Positions 12,359 through 30,375 of a stretch of 64,000 nt of DNA are shown here, piece by piece. Below the pieces are notes generated by a model that did no database searches, had not been told where the DNA came from, and saw only the letters and a list, made by a program, of their open reading frames with translations. Where the stretch lies: NCBI GenBank assembly GCA_013334975.1, contig JAAXWL010000003.1, positions 1 to 64,000 on the forward strand, in the 5' to 3' direction. Numbering within the stretch: the stretch's first letter is position 1; the number at the start of each line of letters is the position of its first letter. The position numbers and the translations under genes were made by a program. Source of the stretch: Chlorobiaceae bacterium (GTDB taxonomy: Bacteria; Bacteroidota; Chlorobiia; Chlorobiales; Chlorobiaceae).

Positions 12359-12592
12359 ATGTCGGTAGAGCAGGCAAAAGCGTTCATCGAGCGGATGAAG
12401 ACGGACGAAGCGTTCCGCGAGAAGGTGATGAGCATCGAAGACGCGGCAGGAAGGATCGCGTGCATCCGGAGCGAAGGGTATGACTGCACCGAACAGGAGA
12501 TCAATGAAGAGGCGCAGGTGGTAGGGGGCGTGGCGGCGGCAGGCGGTGGCATGTACTCAATCATGATTCACAGTATACCCAAAAGGTGTTAA
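12359..12592 (+). CDS. Nif11-like leader peptide (RiPP precursor) 1
   Basis: MSVEQAKAFIERMKTDEAFREKVMSIEDAAGRIACIRSEGYDCTEQEINEEAQ leader, then VVGGVAAAGGGMYSIMIHSIPKRC; strong aaaggaggcccccATG. Confidence 0.85.
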   Translation: MSVEQAKAFIERMKTDEAFREKVMSIEDAAGRIACIRSEGYDCTEQEINEEAQVVGGVAAAGGGMYSIMIHSIPKRC

Positions 12593-12717
12593 GTCGGGTT
12601 CCCACACCTCCGGTATCGCCCCTGATCGGGAGGCAGTGTTGTCAGGCAGGCCATACGATGCCGGAGCGGTCGTAAACCGTTCCGGCATCAGGCGCGTACC
12701 GGGATAACCTGGGGTCA

Positions 12718-12791
12718 GGGGTCAGGCCTTGCAAAACTTGCATTTCCATCATCGCCAACGGACACTTGCAAGTTTTGCAAGGCCTGACCCC
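12718..12791. repeat. 25-bp inverted-repeat element (hairpin), copy 1
   Basis: ggggtcaggccttgcaaaacttgca (12718-12742) / tgcaagttttgcaaggcctgacccc (12767-12791). Confidence 0.9.
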
Positions 12792-12874
12792 AATTTCGTC
12801 TCGGTGATGTCGAGGTGCTTCAGGACATAAACCCGGTAGCGCATAATCAATCAATTAACCCATAGGAGGCCCCC

Positions 12875-13144
12875 ATGTCGGTAGAACAGGCAAAAGCGTT
12901 CATCGAGAAGATGAAGACGGACGAAGCGTTCCGTGAGAAGGTGATGGCCATCGAGGATACGGCAGGAAGGATCGCCTGCATCCGGGGAGAAGGGTTCGAG
13001 TGTACGGAGGAGGAGATCAACGAGGTGGCCCAGGAGGTCAGGGACGACAGCGTACTTGGGGCGGGGATTGATAATTTGCGGATTACATGCGATCGATTGT
13101 TCCCCATCATAGGCTGCGATGGCGCATTATTTTATTTATGTTAG
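12875..13144 (+). CDS. Nif11-like leader peptide (RiPP precursor) 2
   Basis: MSVEQAKAFIEKMKTDEAFREKVMAIEDTAGRIACIRGEGFECTEEEINEVAQEV; distinct Cys-containing tail CDRLFPIIGCDGALFYLC. Confidence 0.85.
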   Translation: MSVEQAKAFIEKMKTDEAFREKVMAIEDTAGRIACIRGEGFECTEEEINEVAQEVRDDSVLGAGIDNLRITCDRLFPIIGCDGALFYLC

Positions 13145-13265
13145 AATCGTTTAGTATGGAGAAAGCCCGCTCTGGTAACCCACGCCTCCGGTATCGCCCA
13201 TGATCGGGAGGCAGTTTCGTCAGGTAGACCATACGATGCCGGAGCGGTCGTAAATCGGATAACCT

Positions 13266-13339
13266 GGGGTCAGGCCTTGCAAAACTTGCAGTTCCAGCAT
13301 CGCCAACGGACACGTGCAAGTTTTGCAAGGCCTGACCCC
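13266..13339. repeat. 25-bp inverted-repeat element (hairpin), copy 2
   Basis: Same arms as copy 1 at 13266-13290 and 13315-13339; near-identical loop. Confidence 0.9.
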
Positions 13340-13380
13340 AATTTCGTCCTTTCAACTCACCTAAGCCAAGGAGGCCCCCC

Positions 13381-13629
13381 ATGTCAGTAGAACACGCCAA
13401 AGCGTTCATCGAGAAGATGACGATGGACGAAGCGTTCCGTGAAAAGATCATGGCAATCGAAACACCGGAGGATCGGCTTAAAGCCATCTGCGCAGCAGGA
13501 TTTGAGTGCAGTGCGGAGGAGGTAAATGATGCCGCCGAGGACGCAGGCAACGTGGCGGGTGGGGGGCGGGCAGAATGGCATCGCCGGCGTCGGCGGTGTG
13601 GTGTTGATGGTCTGACCACACCTCCGTGA
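13381..13629 (+). CDS. Nif11-like leader peptide (RiPP precursor) 3, probably frameshifted in the core
   Basis: MSVEHAKAFIEKMTMDEAFREKIMAIETPEDRLKAICAAGFECSAEEVNDAAEDAGN; after the G run at 13561-13566 another frame reads GGQNGIAGVGGVVLMV*. Confidence 0.75.
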   Translation: MSVEHAKAFIEKMTMDEAFREKIMAIETPEDRLKAICAAGFECSAEEVNDAAEDAGNVAGGGRAEWHRRRRRCGVDGLTTPP

Positions 13630-16694: not shown

Positions 16695-17384
16695 TTAGGC
16701 GTGACACCAGGAAATGGTGTCTTGTCGCCATGATATCGTCACGTCGAAATGCTCCAGGATTGCAGTGCCAATGACGGCGGAGGAGCCGGTTAGGGCCCGG
16801 GCCATAGCGGTCATCACTTCGAGCGCACCCGGCAGTATTCCGTATTCGAGGTCGTGGTCATGGCCGGCGAGAGTAGTATTTACGCTGAATACCGGAGCGG
16901 TGAACCTGCCGTTGAGTGGGTGGAAGTCCTCCTTCTGTCCGATCGGCGTCATGGCCGATACCAGTTTCGGGTCGATGTATGAGAGGTGGGCGCCGGTGTC
17001 GAAGATGGCCATGGTCGCTACATCGCCCAGTCGGACGGGGAACACCGGTATGCCGCCGAGGGTTTCCATCTTGTCGACTGTTTCCCCGTCCGGGAAATCG
17101 TCGGCGAATTCCAGGATGCCTTCATTCCACCGGATTCGCATGGCGTGCAGCCCGGCCAGGATGTCGCAGCCGATGAGTGCCTCGATCTTGATGTCCGCCA
17201 GTTCGCTCAGGGTGTCCGTCGTCACCCCGGCCATATCGGTCGGGGGCGCATATCTATTTCCTGCGAAATCGAAAGGTGCTGGCGCGAAGCTCGTCGGGGA
17301 ACCGGTGTCGACGAGGGCGTTGCCAGTCGGCATAGGGACGATGATGTGCCCGCGGATGGCATTGAAGGGGACGGTTATCGTCAT
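16695..17384 (-). CDS. bilobed retropepsin-like aspartic protease with two DTG motifs
   Basis: Lobe 1 ALVDTGSPTSF...ALIGCDIL; lobe 2 AIFDTGAHLSY...AVIGTAIL. Confidence 0.7.
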   Translation of the reverse strand: MTITVPFNAIRGHIIVPMPTGNALVDTGSPTSFAPAPFDFAGNRYAPPTDMAGVTTDTLSELADIKIEALIGCDILAGLHAMRIRWNEGILEFADDFPDGETVDKMETLGGIPVFPVRLGDVATMAIFDTGAHLSYIDPKLVSAMTPIGQKEDFHPLNGRFTAPVFSVNTTLAGHDHDLEYGILPGALEVMTAMARALTGSSAVIGTAILEHFDVTISWRQDTISWCHA

Positions 17385-19443: not shown

Positions 19444-20058
19444 ATGAAAGACGGCTATACGCACATCACGGTCATCCTGGACCGGAGCGGTTCAATGGAA
19501 TCCATCCGCGAGGACGCCATCGGAGGGTTTAACGCCTTCGTTGGGCAGCAGAAAACCGGTCCGGGAGAAGCCAGCCTGACGCTCGTCCAGTTCGACTCGC
19601 TGGATCCGTACGAGGTGGTCTGGCATTTCAGGCCGATCGAAAAGGTCCCCGCGCTGAACCTGGAGACCTATGTGCCCCGAGGCGGTACGCCGCTTCTCGA
19701 TGCGCTGGGCAGGGGCATTAACGACATCGAGGCGAGCATCGGAAGACTCGATGATGCGGAGCGGCCGGAGCACGTGATCGTGGCCGTTATCACCGACGGG
19801 CAGGAGAACTCGAGCAAAGAGTTCGACAAGAATCAGATCGAGCAAATGATCAAGAAACGCTCCGCCGCCGACTGGGAGTTCGTCTTCCTCAGCGCCGACC
19901 TTGCCGCCATTGATGACGCCATGCGAATGGGTTTCCGCCAGGACGCCACTGTGGCGTTCGAAAAAAGCCCGGAAGGTGTGGCCTGCTGCATGGAAACCCT
20001 GTCGTCGAGGGTGTTCGCCAGACGTATGGCACCAAAAGGAAGCTGGAAGGATCTTTGA
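19444..20058 (+). CDS. von Willebrand factor A domain protein
   Basis: MIDAS-type HITVILDRSGSMESIREDAIGGFNAFV...RGGTPLLDALG...VIVAVITDGQENSS. Confidence 0.92.
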   Translation: MKDGYTHITVILDRSGSMESIREDAIGGFNAFVGQQKTGPGEASLTLVQFDSLDPYEVVWHFRPIEKVPALNLETYVPRGGTPLLDALGRGINDIEASIGRLDDAERPEHVIVAVITDGQENSSKEFDKNQIEQMIKKRSAADWEFVFLSADLAAIDDAMRMGFRQDATVAFEKSPEGVACCMETLSSRVFARRMAPKGSWKDL

Positions 20059-20124: not shown

Positions 20125-21330
20125 ATGGGTTTTGAACTTGATCATGAGCAACTGATTCTGGGCCAGTCCGCTGGCCTCCGCATAAAGGTCGTCGGTGTCG
20201 GCCGGTTCGGATGTCTGGTCATCAACCACATGGTCGAGAACAATCTGCAGGGGGTCGATTATGTGGCGATTCATTCAGATCCCCGGGTCCTTCTTGAATC
20301 GAAGGCGTCGATCAAGTTGAGGATCGGCGCGGGTGCAGCCCTGGAAAGGGAACAAAACAGGTCCTTGGGGTCGGGTTCCGTTTACCGGCGGCAACTCAAC
20401 GATGAAGAACGTCAATACATCGCCACCCAGCTGCAAGGCGCCAATGTGATCATCCTTGTCGCGGGGATGGGAAAGGGCACCGGGACCAACTTGGCCCCCG
20501 GCATCGCACTCGTGGCCAGGAACATGGGCATATTGACATTGGGAATCGTCACGACTCCGTTCAGTTGCGAAGGGAAGTCGAAAGCCCAGAGTGCAGAGGA
20601 GGGGATTGCGGAACTCAGGAAGTATATCGACACGCTGATCAATATCGACAACGAAAAGGTGCTGGCGCAGTCGGCCAATCCCTCGGTCGACGAAGCCTTC
20701 GTCCAGACTACGGAACTCGTTTGTGGTACGGCCAGGAGCATTGCGGATGTGCTGTCGAGCCGTGGCCATATCAACATCAGTTTCGCGGATTTTGCCGAAC
20801 TGCTGACTGATGCCGGCGAGGCCTCCATCGGAATCGCTACGGCATCAGGCGAGGGAAGTGCCTTGAAGGCCGTGACGAATGCCTATAAAAGCCTTCAGAT
20901 CAGCAAGGAGGAGGCGAGCCGGATAAAGGGCCTGATGGTCAATATCACGGGCAAGGTCGGCATGAAGGACCTGACTTCGGCGATGACGTACCTCCTGGGC
21001 CAGGTCGGCAGCGAGGCCACTGTCATCAATGGCTATATCGAACAGTCGCAGGATATCGGGGTGACCCGGGCAACGCTGATCGTGACTGGCATCAGGACGG
21101 TGTCCAAGCCCGTTCAGCCGGTACAGCCAATCACCCCGCCAGGCTTTCCGCCCATACTGCCTCCAGGGATTAAAGACCGGGATCGCACGTTGCCCACCTA
21201 CGTCCGTAGGCAGATTCGCGTTCCGGGTCTGGAGGACAGCCCGTCTTATCCGAGCTCGTCATCGGGATACAAGGATAAAATCAATAAAAGCAGGCCCGAG
21301 ACGCCCGCATTCGAAAGGGTGATAGCTTGA
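20125..21330 (+). CDS. divergent FtsZ-like protein
   Basis: IKVVGVGRFGCLVINHMVE (T1), AGMGKGTGTNLAPGIA (T4 signature), TPFSCEGKSKAQSAEEGIAELRKYIDTLINIDNEKVL, INISFADF (T7), KGLMVNITG. Confidence 0.92.
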   Translation: MGFELDHEQLILGQSAGLRIKVVGVGRFGCLVINHMVENNLQGVDYVAIHSDPRVLLESKASIKLRIGAGAALEREQNRSLGSGSVYRRQLNDEERQYIATQLQGANVIILVAGMGKGTGTNLAPGIALVARNMGILTLGIVTTPFSCEGKSKAQSAEEGIAELRKYIDTLINIDNEKVLAQSANPSVDEAFVQTTELVCGTARSIADVLSSRGHINISFADFAELLTDAGEASIGIATASGEGSALKAVTNAYKSLQISKEEASRIKGLMVNITGKVGMKDLTSAMTYLLGQVGSEATVINGYIEQSQDIGVTRATLIVTGIRTVSKPVQPVQPITPPGFPPILPPGIKDRDRTLPTYVRRQIRVPGLEDSPSYPSSSSGYKDKINKSRPETPAFERVIA

Positions 21331-28402: not shown

Positions 28403-29113
28403 TTATAATTTCCTGCCCAGTCCATCGCTCCGCGTCCATGAGATGATGCCTTCACGCCACGAGACGGCAACGTCGAGATGCCGCAGGATCGAGGTGCCGA
28501 TGACCGCCTAGGCCCCGGCCATGCCCATGGCCATCGAGGTCATCATCCCTACCTTGCCCGGCAGGACCCCGTATTCGATCTCGTTGGCAAGCGCGTCGAT
28601 GCTGGTGCTGACGTTGTAGACCGGCGCCTTGAACCTCCCGTTGAGCGGGTGGAAGTCATCTTTCTCTCCGGTAGGAACCATCTTCGCAACCAGCGCCGGG
28701 TCGATGTAGGAGAGGTGGGCCCCTGTGTCGAAGATGGCTTTGGTCGCTGTGCCGTTGATTGTGACGGGGAAGACCGGCGTCCCGGCGAGGATGGCTAACG
28801 GGTCATTGACCTCGCCGGGCGGGAACCCGTCGGCGAATTCGAGGAGGCCGTCGTTCCATCGGATTCTCAATCCGTGCAGATTGGTCAGGATGTCGCAGCC
28901 GACGACCGCATCGATCCGCATATCGGCCAGTTCGGCCATGACCTCAGTCGTCAGCCCCATCATCGATTCGGGGAGGTTGAACCTCTTTCCAGCCAGTTCG
29001 ATCGGCCAGCGCCCGAAACTCACCGGTGAGCCGGTGTCGACCAGGGCGTCGCAGCCCGGAAGCGGGATAATGAGGTGGCCGCGTACGTTGTTGAAGGGAA
29101 TGATTGTGGGCAT
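28403..29113 (-). pseudogene. second bilobed retropepsin-like protein interrupted by an in-frame TAG
   Basis: ORF 28508..29113 aligns with 16695..17384; after TAG the frame continues AVIGTSILRHLDVAVSWREGIISWTRSDGLGRKL*. Confidence 0.75.
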
Positions 29114-29295: not shown

Positions 29296-30375
29296 ATGAC
29301 AGGAACAGGCAACAGCAGCAGAACCAGCACACGCCAAGCCATGAAACCACAGACGAGGTTTGCAATGAAACGGATGCATACCATCGACAGGGAGCTGCGA
29401 GCAGGGAAGTTCCCGAACTGCTCGACACTCGCAAAGGATCTGGACACATCGTCCAAGACCATCCAGCGCGACATCAACTATATGACGCTCATGCTCAAGG
29501 CTCCCATCGCCTATGACAACAAGGCAAGGGGCTTCTACTACACTGAGGAGTGGTTGTTCTTTCCGAGCAGTTACTTCAACGAGCTTGATGCTGAATCCCT
29601 GCTGGCGACCAGGGCGGTCCTGTCTCAGTACGAAGGGGCGCCCTACTACGTCGACATCTGCGCCGCGCTCGACAAGGTGCTCCGCAACTTCCCGCCCGCA
29701 AAGAAGGAACGTCACCTCCTCGATGTCTACTCCTTTGCCCAGGCATCGGCGGCGCTGCCGGATACAGAGCTATTTCGCATGCTCGAAGGGGCGATCAGGA
29801 ACCAGCTAAAGGTCAGGTTCCGCTACGAATCGCTGCGGAACGGCGCCGCAAGCCAACGGACCGTCCACCCGTATCGCCTGCACCTTGCCGAGGATACCTG
29901 GTACCTGGTTGCCTTCTGCGAACTCCGTAAAGGGCTGCGTTTGTTCATCCTGCGCAACATCAAGGAGCTTGAGGTGCTGGACGGGCACTACCGGCCGGAT
30001 GCGGGTTTCGATATCGACGGCTACCTGCAAACCCGGATGTTCCTGTTCATCGAAGGTGGCGGTAAGCACACGGTCAGGATCCGGTTCTCCGAACGCTTCG
30101 CCGATTACGTCAGGCATCGCCGATGGCATCCCTCCCAAGAGCTCGCCGCCAACACCGACGGGTCCATTATCCTCTCCATGAACGTCGACGCCTACGACGT
30201 CGTGGCCTGCTGGATCATGCAGTTCGGCACCGGCGCAGAGGTGCTGGAACCTGCCGGACTCCGCAAGAGGGTCGTGCGGGAATCCCGGGCGATACCAGGA
30301 CTTTATGACACGAATGACCGGGTATCGAACCATGCCCTGCAGGAGGAACAGGAACAGGAAAGAAACAAGGAGTAA
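29296..30375 (+). CDS. WYL-domain transcriptional regulator 1
   Basis: HTH MHTIDRELRAGKFPNCSTLAKDLDTSSKTIQRDINYM; WYL region HPYRLHLAEDTWYLVAFCELRKGLRLFILRNIKELEVL. Confidence 0.88.
   Translation: MTGTGNSSRTSTRQAMKPQTRFAMKRMHTIDRELRAGKFPNCSTLAKDLDTSSKTIQRDINYMTLMLKAPIAYDNKARGFYYTEEWLFFPSSYFNELDAESLLATRAVLSQYEGAPYYVDICAALDKVLRNFPPAKKERHLLDVYSFAQASAALPDTELFRMLEGAIRNQLKVRFRYESLRNGAASQRTVHPYRLHLAEDTWYLVAFCELRKGLRLFILRNIKELEVLDGHYRPDAGFDIDGYLQTRMFLFIEGGGKHTVRIRFSERFADYVRHRRWHPSQELAANTDGSIILSMNVDAYDVVACWIMQFGTGAEVLEPAGLRKRVVRESRAIPGLYDTNDRVSNHALQEEQEQERNKE

Follow-up and report, generated by a model that had tools for sequence, protein, structure and literature searches.

The gene P0001, on the reverse strand of the 64,000-nucleotide stretch of Chlorobiaceae DNA analysed here (the window), probably encodes a clan AA aspartic endopeptidase, cytosolic and with two lobes in a single chain, which is built from a duplicated and fused retropepsin-like lobe and acts with specificity at near-neutral pH. 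The P0001 family is widespread and apparently undescribed among bacteria. P0001 was originally singled out for two DTG motifs in one frame, each followed by a hydrophobic-hydrophobic-Gly (hhG) motif, and this reading holds: the first set comprises ALVDTGS (D26) and LIG (G72), the second AIFDTGA (D129) and VIG (G206), and all four residues are kept in 44 of 44 full-length homologues. The relevant features are as follows, with codon coordinates counted from the start codon at 17,384.

16,695 to 17,384, reverse strand: two-lobed aspartic peptidase gene P0001, 229 aa with an ATG start, supported by its open reading frame, 63 related loci, a PF13650 match on the C-lobe and an AlphaFold2 pLDDT of 95.7
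17,085 to 17,384, reverse strand: N-lobe of P0001, about residues 1-100, with DTGS at 26-29 and LIG at 70-72; shortened and lacking a long flap, from homologue spacing and model secondary structure
16,698 to 17,084, reverse strand: C-lobe of P0001, about residues 101-229, with DTGA at 129-132, a flap at about 149-172 (DFHPLNGRF), an extra helix at 186-199 and VIG at 204-206, from spacing, conservation and the model
17,301 to 17,309, reverse strand: first DTG codons (residues 26-28), unchanged in all 44 homologues
16,992 to 17,000, reverse strand: second DTG codons (residues 129-131), with D129 and G131 invariant and T or S at 130
28,430 to 29,113, reverse strand: paralogue of P0001, sharing 56% identity and intact except for a single in-frame TAG in the C-lobe, immediately ahead of the second hhG motif

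P0001 is a real gene, because relatives exist at 63 loci and both aspartates and both glycines are conserved throughout the homologues. Among close homologue pairs, the third codon position changes about 2-5 times as often as the other positions, as expected of a coding gene under constraint. Only P0001 and the paralogue at 28.4-29.1 kb carry two such DTG motifs in one frame among the 508 stop-to-stop frames of at least 60 aa in the whole window, and the two motifs appeared in 1 of 200,000 shuffles of P0001. The paralogue is probably a decaying copy. A WYL regulator gene (29,296-30,375) is divergent to it, and a homologue of this regulator (58% identical) lies just upstream of a family fragment at the locus L037. 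Promoter and terminator scans of the P0001 locus were empty.

Internal duplication and predicted fold

Profiles of the N-lobe and the C-lobe align with each other end to end (P ~3e-9, probability 96%), strongly supporting an internal duplication of P0001 at the level of sequence. AlphaFold2 modelled P0001 with its family alignment at pLDDT 95.7 and pTM 0.91, and a Bacteroidota homologue only 24% identical to P0001 (L054) at pLDDT 96.0 and pTM 0.91, two runs that had most of the alignment in common and are thus not fully independent. Both models match 9iy9 best among PDB folds (TM by query 0.66 and 0.68); renins, pepsins and other two-lobed enzymes come next at about 0.55-0.65, with essentially the whole target aligned. 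Tethered HIV-protease dimers match at about 0.45, and the top viral matches, which are for the most part single-lobe retropepsins, stay at 0.27-0.45. The Foldseek rmsd of these matches is high (~5-10 Å), as expected of proteins that differ by 100 residues of loops. The full-length matches to renin and pepsin imply that the lobes of the modelled protein pack as in pepsin, which would set both aspartates in one cleft. The internally duplicated, pepsin-like arrangement of the original prediction is strongly supported by the similarity of the lobe profiles, the two high-confidence models and these full-length fold matches.

The same prediction described two complete retropepsin-type lobes, which is true of the C-lobe but not of the N-lobe, shortened and devoid of a long flap hairpin by both spacing and model. 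Across the 44 homologues, the Asp-to-hhG spacing is 45-53 residues in the N-lobe versus 73-79 in the C-lobe, and the spacing between the two aspartates in sequence varies little (median 104). In the secondary structure of the models, the C-lobe has a long hairpin (149-155/159-172) with a conserved DF[HY]P..G.F motif, and the N-lobe hairpin is very short (38-40/43-45). Because only the C-lobe has a long hairpin in the models, the single long flap is predicted to sit there, leaving the N-lobe nearly flapless. In pepsin, the main flap is on the N-lobe; the P0001 family lacks this A1 trait, as judged from secondary structure. In the long two-lobed relatives L095 and L097, the N-lobe spacing is still 73-82, which makes the short N-lobe a hallmark of the P0001 family. 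To our knowledge, there is no solved template for so short an N-lobe, and the cleft on that side of P0001 may be atypical. At an Ignavibacteria locus (L066), the N-lobe (2,176-2,478) and the C-lobe (2,479-2,859) occupy the same frame with one stop codon in the linker directly before an ATG; either the gene is split here or a nonsense mutation has interrupted it.

Family membership, precedents and distribution

Each lobe of all 44 homologues contains the clan AA combination of DTG or DSG with a psi-loop hhG motif. HMM searches against retropepsin and pepsin families gave a divided answer. PF13650 matches the C-lobe, the sole lobe of P0001 recognised by Pfam, at 24.8 bits (cut-off 24.3) and 42 of the 44 members at E<=0.1; the pepsin model PF00026 matches none of the 44 at E<=0.1. 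Pfam therefore covers the family only in part. The lobe-lobe profile match and the models indicate the single chain with two lobes that is typical of PF00026, and the A2-like arrangement of one lobe per chain in a dimer is contradicted by the two lobes of every full-length member. By sequence, P0001 is placed outside family A1, and by its predicted architecture it is not an ordinary A2 enzyme.

A two-lobed arrangement is not categorically new, and the uniqueness implied by the original prediction was too strong, since other two-lobed bacterial proteins exist. Although a PDB search with the single P0001 sequence returned chance matches only, the best PDB profile match of the family is 9iy9 (E 4e-9), a "putative endopeptidase" or "Exported protein" of Bacteroides fragilis (420 aa, released 2025-08-06) for which a describing paper was not found. 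Like P0001, it carries both motifs, DTG and hhG, twice in a single chain. However, 9iy9 is exported, with about 420 aa and an extra N-terminal region, whereas P0001 has 229 aa and no leader. The first lobe of 9iy9 bears a DTGA..SY signature and, in the printed alignment, a full Asp-to-hhG spacing of about 76; P0001 has this signature in its C-lobe and a short N-lobe. P0001 shows no leader ahead of its first strand, and across its family the N-lobe spacing of 45-53 falls short of a full-length N-lobe. Three long, probably secreted Bacteroidota proteins (L095, L096 and L097) also have two DTG lobes per chain, and these lobes match the P0001 family profiles; their open frames of 347-521 aa begin with leader-like N-termini (judged by eye), unlike P0001.

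Pepsins of family A1, including the bacterial shewasins, resemble P0001 in their two lobes with one catalytic aspartate each, and bacterial members have also been described as intracellular (PMC2761423). They differ in length (about 325 residues versus 229), in the PF00026 match that the P0001 family lacks and in carrying the main flap on the opposite lobe. Single-lobe retropepsin-like proteins (PF13650; RimB, RloA, APRc, Ddi1 and HIV protease) share their signature, DTGA, flap and hhG, with the P0001 C-lobe, but they have one lobe per chain and form dimers, whereas P0001 fuses two divergent lobes. A paper describing a compact cytosolic family with a C-lobe flap was not found in the open-licence literature, a scope within which absence is not proven.

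An alignment-based scan of GTDB species representatives found relatives of P0001 at 63 or more loci, a lower bound because the C-lobe motif was required, and a count that includes fragments as well as second copies within one genome. An earlier scan of genome contigs with the single P0001 sequence had found none. The hosts include Chlorobiaceae, Ignavibacteriota, Bacteroidota, Acidobacteriota, Hydrogenedentota, Myxococcota, Synergistota, Deferribacterota, Elusimicrobiota and Competibacteraceae, among others. The family tree spans 13 phylum-level groups, and its Chlorobiaceae branch also contains copies from Competibacteraceae, Myxococcota and Hydrogenedentota. Of 398 genomes in the phylum, 20 matched in a profile search, four of them through weaker, partial matches to longer proteins; the 20 further members listed for the genus of the window gave no match. 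The genome of origin itself comprises 2.79 Mb in 178 contigs. The patchy distribution of the family fits lateral transfer, to which binning errors in metagenome assemblies could add, and P0001 is probably a patchily distributed accessory gene. Carriage by viruses, phages or plasmids was considered and dropped, as searches of viral, phage and plasmid collections gave no family matches.

Genomic neighbourhood

Two genes near P0001 bear on its possible regulation.

17,522 to about 18,148, reverse strand: XRE-type regulator just upstream of P0001 across a 137-bp gap (HTH_3, E 3e-14), a neighbour in this genome only
19,444 to 20,058, forward strand: VWA-domain protein with a weak VWA match and homologues in L047 and L073

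It is fair to call the surroundings of P0001 a toxin-antitoxin-rich accessory region: they contain HipBA, RelE-HTH and Gp49-HTH together with Nif11-type peptides, Fic, a WYL regulator and the reverse transcriptase of a group II intron. The original prediction set P0001 beside an XRE regulator in a conflict-type island. Both the XRE gene and the toxin-antitoxin-rich surroundings are real, but they tie P0001 only weakly to a conflict role, because no XRE homologue adjoins the other family loci; a conserved role of this neighbour was rejected for the same reason. A link to a described conflict system was also rejected, large surveys of such systems making no mention of aspartic proteases. It is rather unlikely that P0001 is a conflict or toxin-antitoxin effector, restrained by the XRE protein and cutting a host or phage protein once activated. 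The toxin-antitoxin genes of the window, the upstream XRE gene, the patchy distribution and the VWA, ADP-ribosylglycohydrolase, PP2C, kinase-AAA or TerB-like genes near some relatives would suit such an effector, yet the XRE neighbour recurs beside no other family locus, PADLOC defence models give no match for P0001, and many relatives stand among unrelated housekeeping genes (e.g., L071 and L062). The effector reading addresses the biological role of P0001 and is compatible with its being an endopeptidase.

VWA domains recur near the family without being universal: they are fused to the protease in L044, L046 and probably L048, adjacent as a VIT-VWA protein in L069, and nearby in L047, L073 and the window. 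The fusions in L044 (4,702-6,672) and L046 (880-2,919) are proteins of 650-680 aa with an N-terminal VWA domain and the bilobed protease as their C-terminal part. Going by raw counts of loci, the fused VWA domain is the most promising hint of a regulator of the family, and by analogy the VWA protein at 19,444-20,058 is a possible partner of P0001. Next to this gene lies an FtsZ-like GTPase (20,125-21,330, forward strand; Tubulin 3e-28, FtsZ_C only at the cut-off), perhaps a second, divergent FtsZ.

Other neighbours vary. ADP-ribosylglycohydrolase-like genes, again not universal, occur in L022 (with PP2C and YbjN), L026, L041 and L053, and a methyltransferase is found at or just upstream of the protease in a group of Ignavibacteriota and Bacteroidota loci. 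A protein of about 180 aa bearing an LGHG motif, which by eye may be caspase-like, recurs as a neighbour in L043, L060, L073, L076 and L077; the two copies scanned (L043 and L076) had no Pfam match. In L063 (1,110-10,776), the cluster around a relative contains an Hsp70-like gene (by eye) as well as genes for a protein kinase-AAA fusion, a TerB-like protein and a restriction methylase of Eco57I type. In L024 (2,739-5,159, reverse strand), ThiF/E1-like and JAB-domain genes that resemble bacterial ubiquitin-like conjugation operons adjoin a family copy. The relatives at L040 (6,001-7,008) and L042 (664-2,148) bear a C-terminal extension with a common Cys-rich stretch, WC....C.TCGA.D, and no Pfam match. 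Within the window, three successive genes for Nif11-type leader peptides (12,359-13,629, forward strand; the one at 12,875-13,144 Pfam-confirmed) are possible RiPP precursors. Across the family, neighbouring genes point to no consistent substrate.

Putative activity and origin

P0001 is most likely a specific intracellular aspartic endopeptidase, an activity that remains putative. Inspection of the sequence and model found no hydrophobic leader ahead of the first strand, so P0001 should be cytosolic. In the proposed mechanism, an ancestral retropepsin-like lobe would have been duplicated and then fused into one chain, after which the lobes diverged: the C-lobe would have kept the substrate-covering flap (about 149-172, DF[HY]P..G.F) and the extra helix, and the N-lobe would have been reduced to a psi-loop platform. 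P0001 would then operate as pepsin or a tethered retropepsin dimer does, with two aspartates, one cleft and one flap, and might cleave one or a few specific intracellular proteins near neutral pH; catalysis, pH and specificity are each what we infer. The residue after the C-lobe DTG is alanine in 44 of 44 homologues, and in renin, retropepsin and bacterial pepsins alanine at this position has been tied to a neutral pH optimum (PMC2761423), suggesting by analogy that P0001 is active at neutral pH.

The residues D26, T27, G28, G72, D74, D129, G131, A132, S135, Y136, D153 and G206 are invariant in the 44 full-length homologues, and within the C-lobe flap, F154, P156, G159 and F161 are near-invariant alongside the invariant D153. 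That the two aspartates and the two psi-loop glycines survive across such divergence speaks for a functional two-Asp site in the family. The same conservation makes it improbable that the fold is right but P0001 serves mainly as a peptide-binding or scaffold protein. Clan AA does include members that have lost catalysis, Ddi1 being called a non-peptidase (PMC2761423), and the VWA fusions and lack of an evident substrate would suit a binding role; however, lost catalysis normally entails a lost aspartate, and both DTG motifs and both glycines persist in 44 diverse homologues. It is very improbable that P0001 acts as a dimer with catalytic sites between chains, as in ordinary retropepsins and in solved bacterial retropepsin-like enzymes such as RloA (PMC12239564), given the very high confidence of the single-chain models (pTM 0.91), their full-length match to monomeric two-lobed pepsins, and an in-chain Asp-Asp spacing that hardly departs from its median of 104.

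More tentatively, the single-chain endopeptidase might represent an undescribed cytosolic clan AA family in which lobe duplication took place apart from that of pepsin, with the lobe roles reversed and with control, in some cases, by a VWA partner or fusion. It has long been asked whether a duplicated retropepsin-like gene gave rise to pepsin or the reverse took place (PMC2761423), and the P0001 family could show how pepsin-type enzymes arise through duplication. A compact two-lobed family whose halves still match by profile, together with the single-lobe PF13650 proteins that occur in the same order as the P0001 host, makes the duplication step testable.
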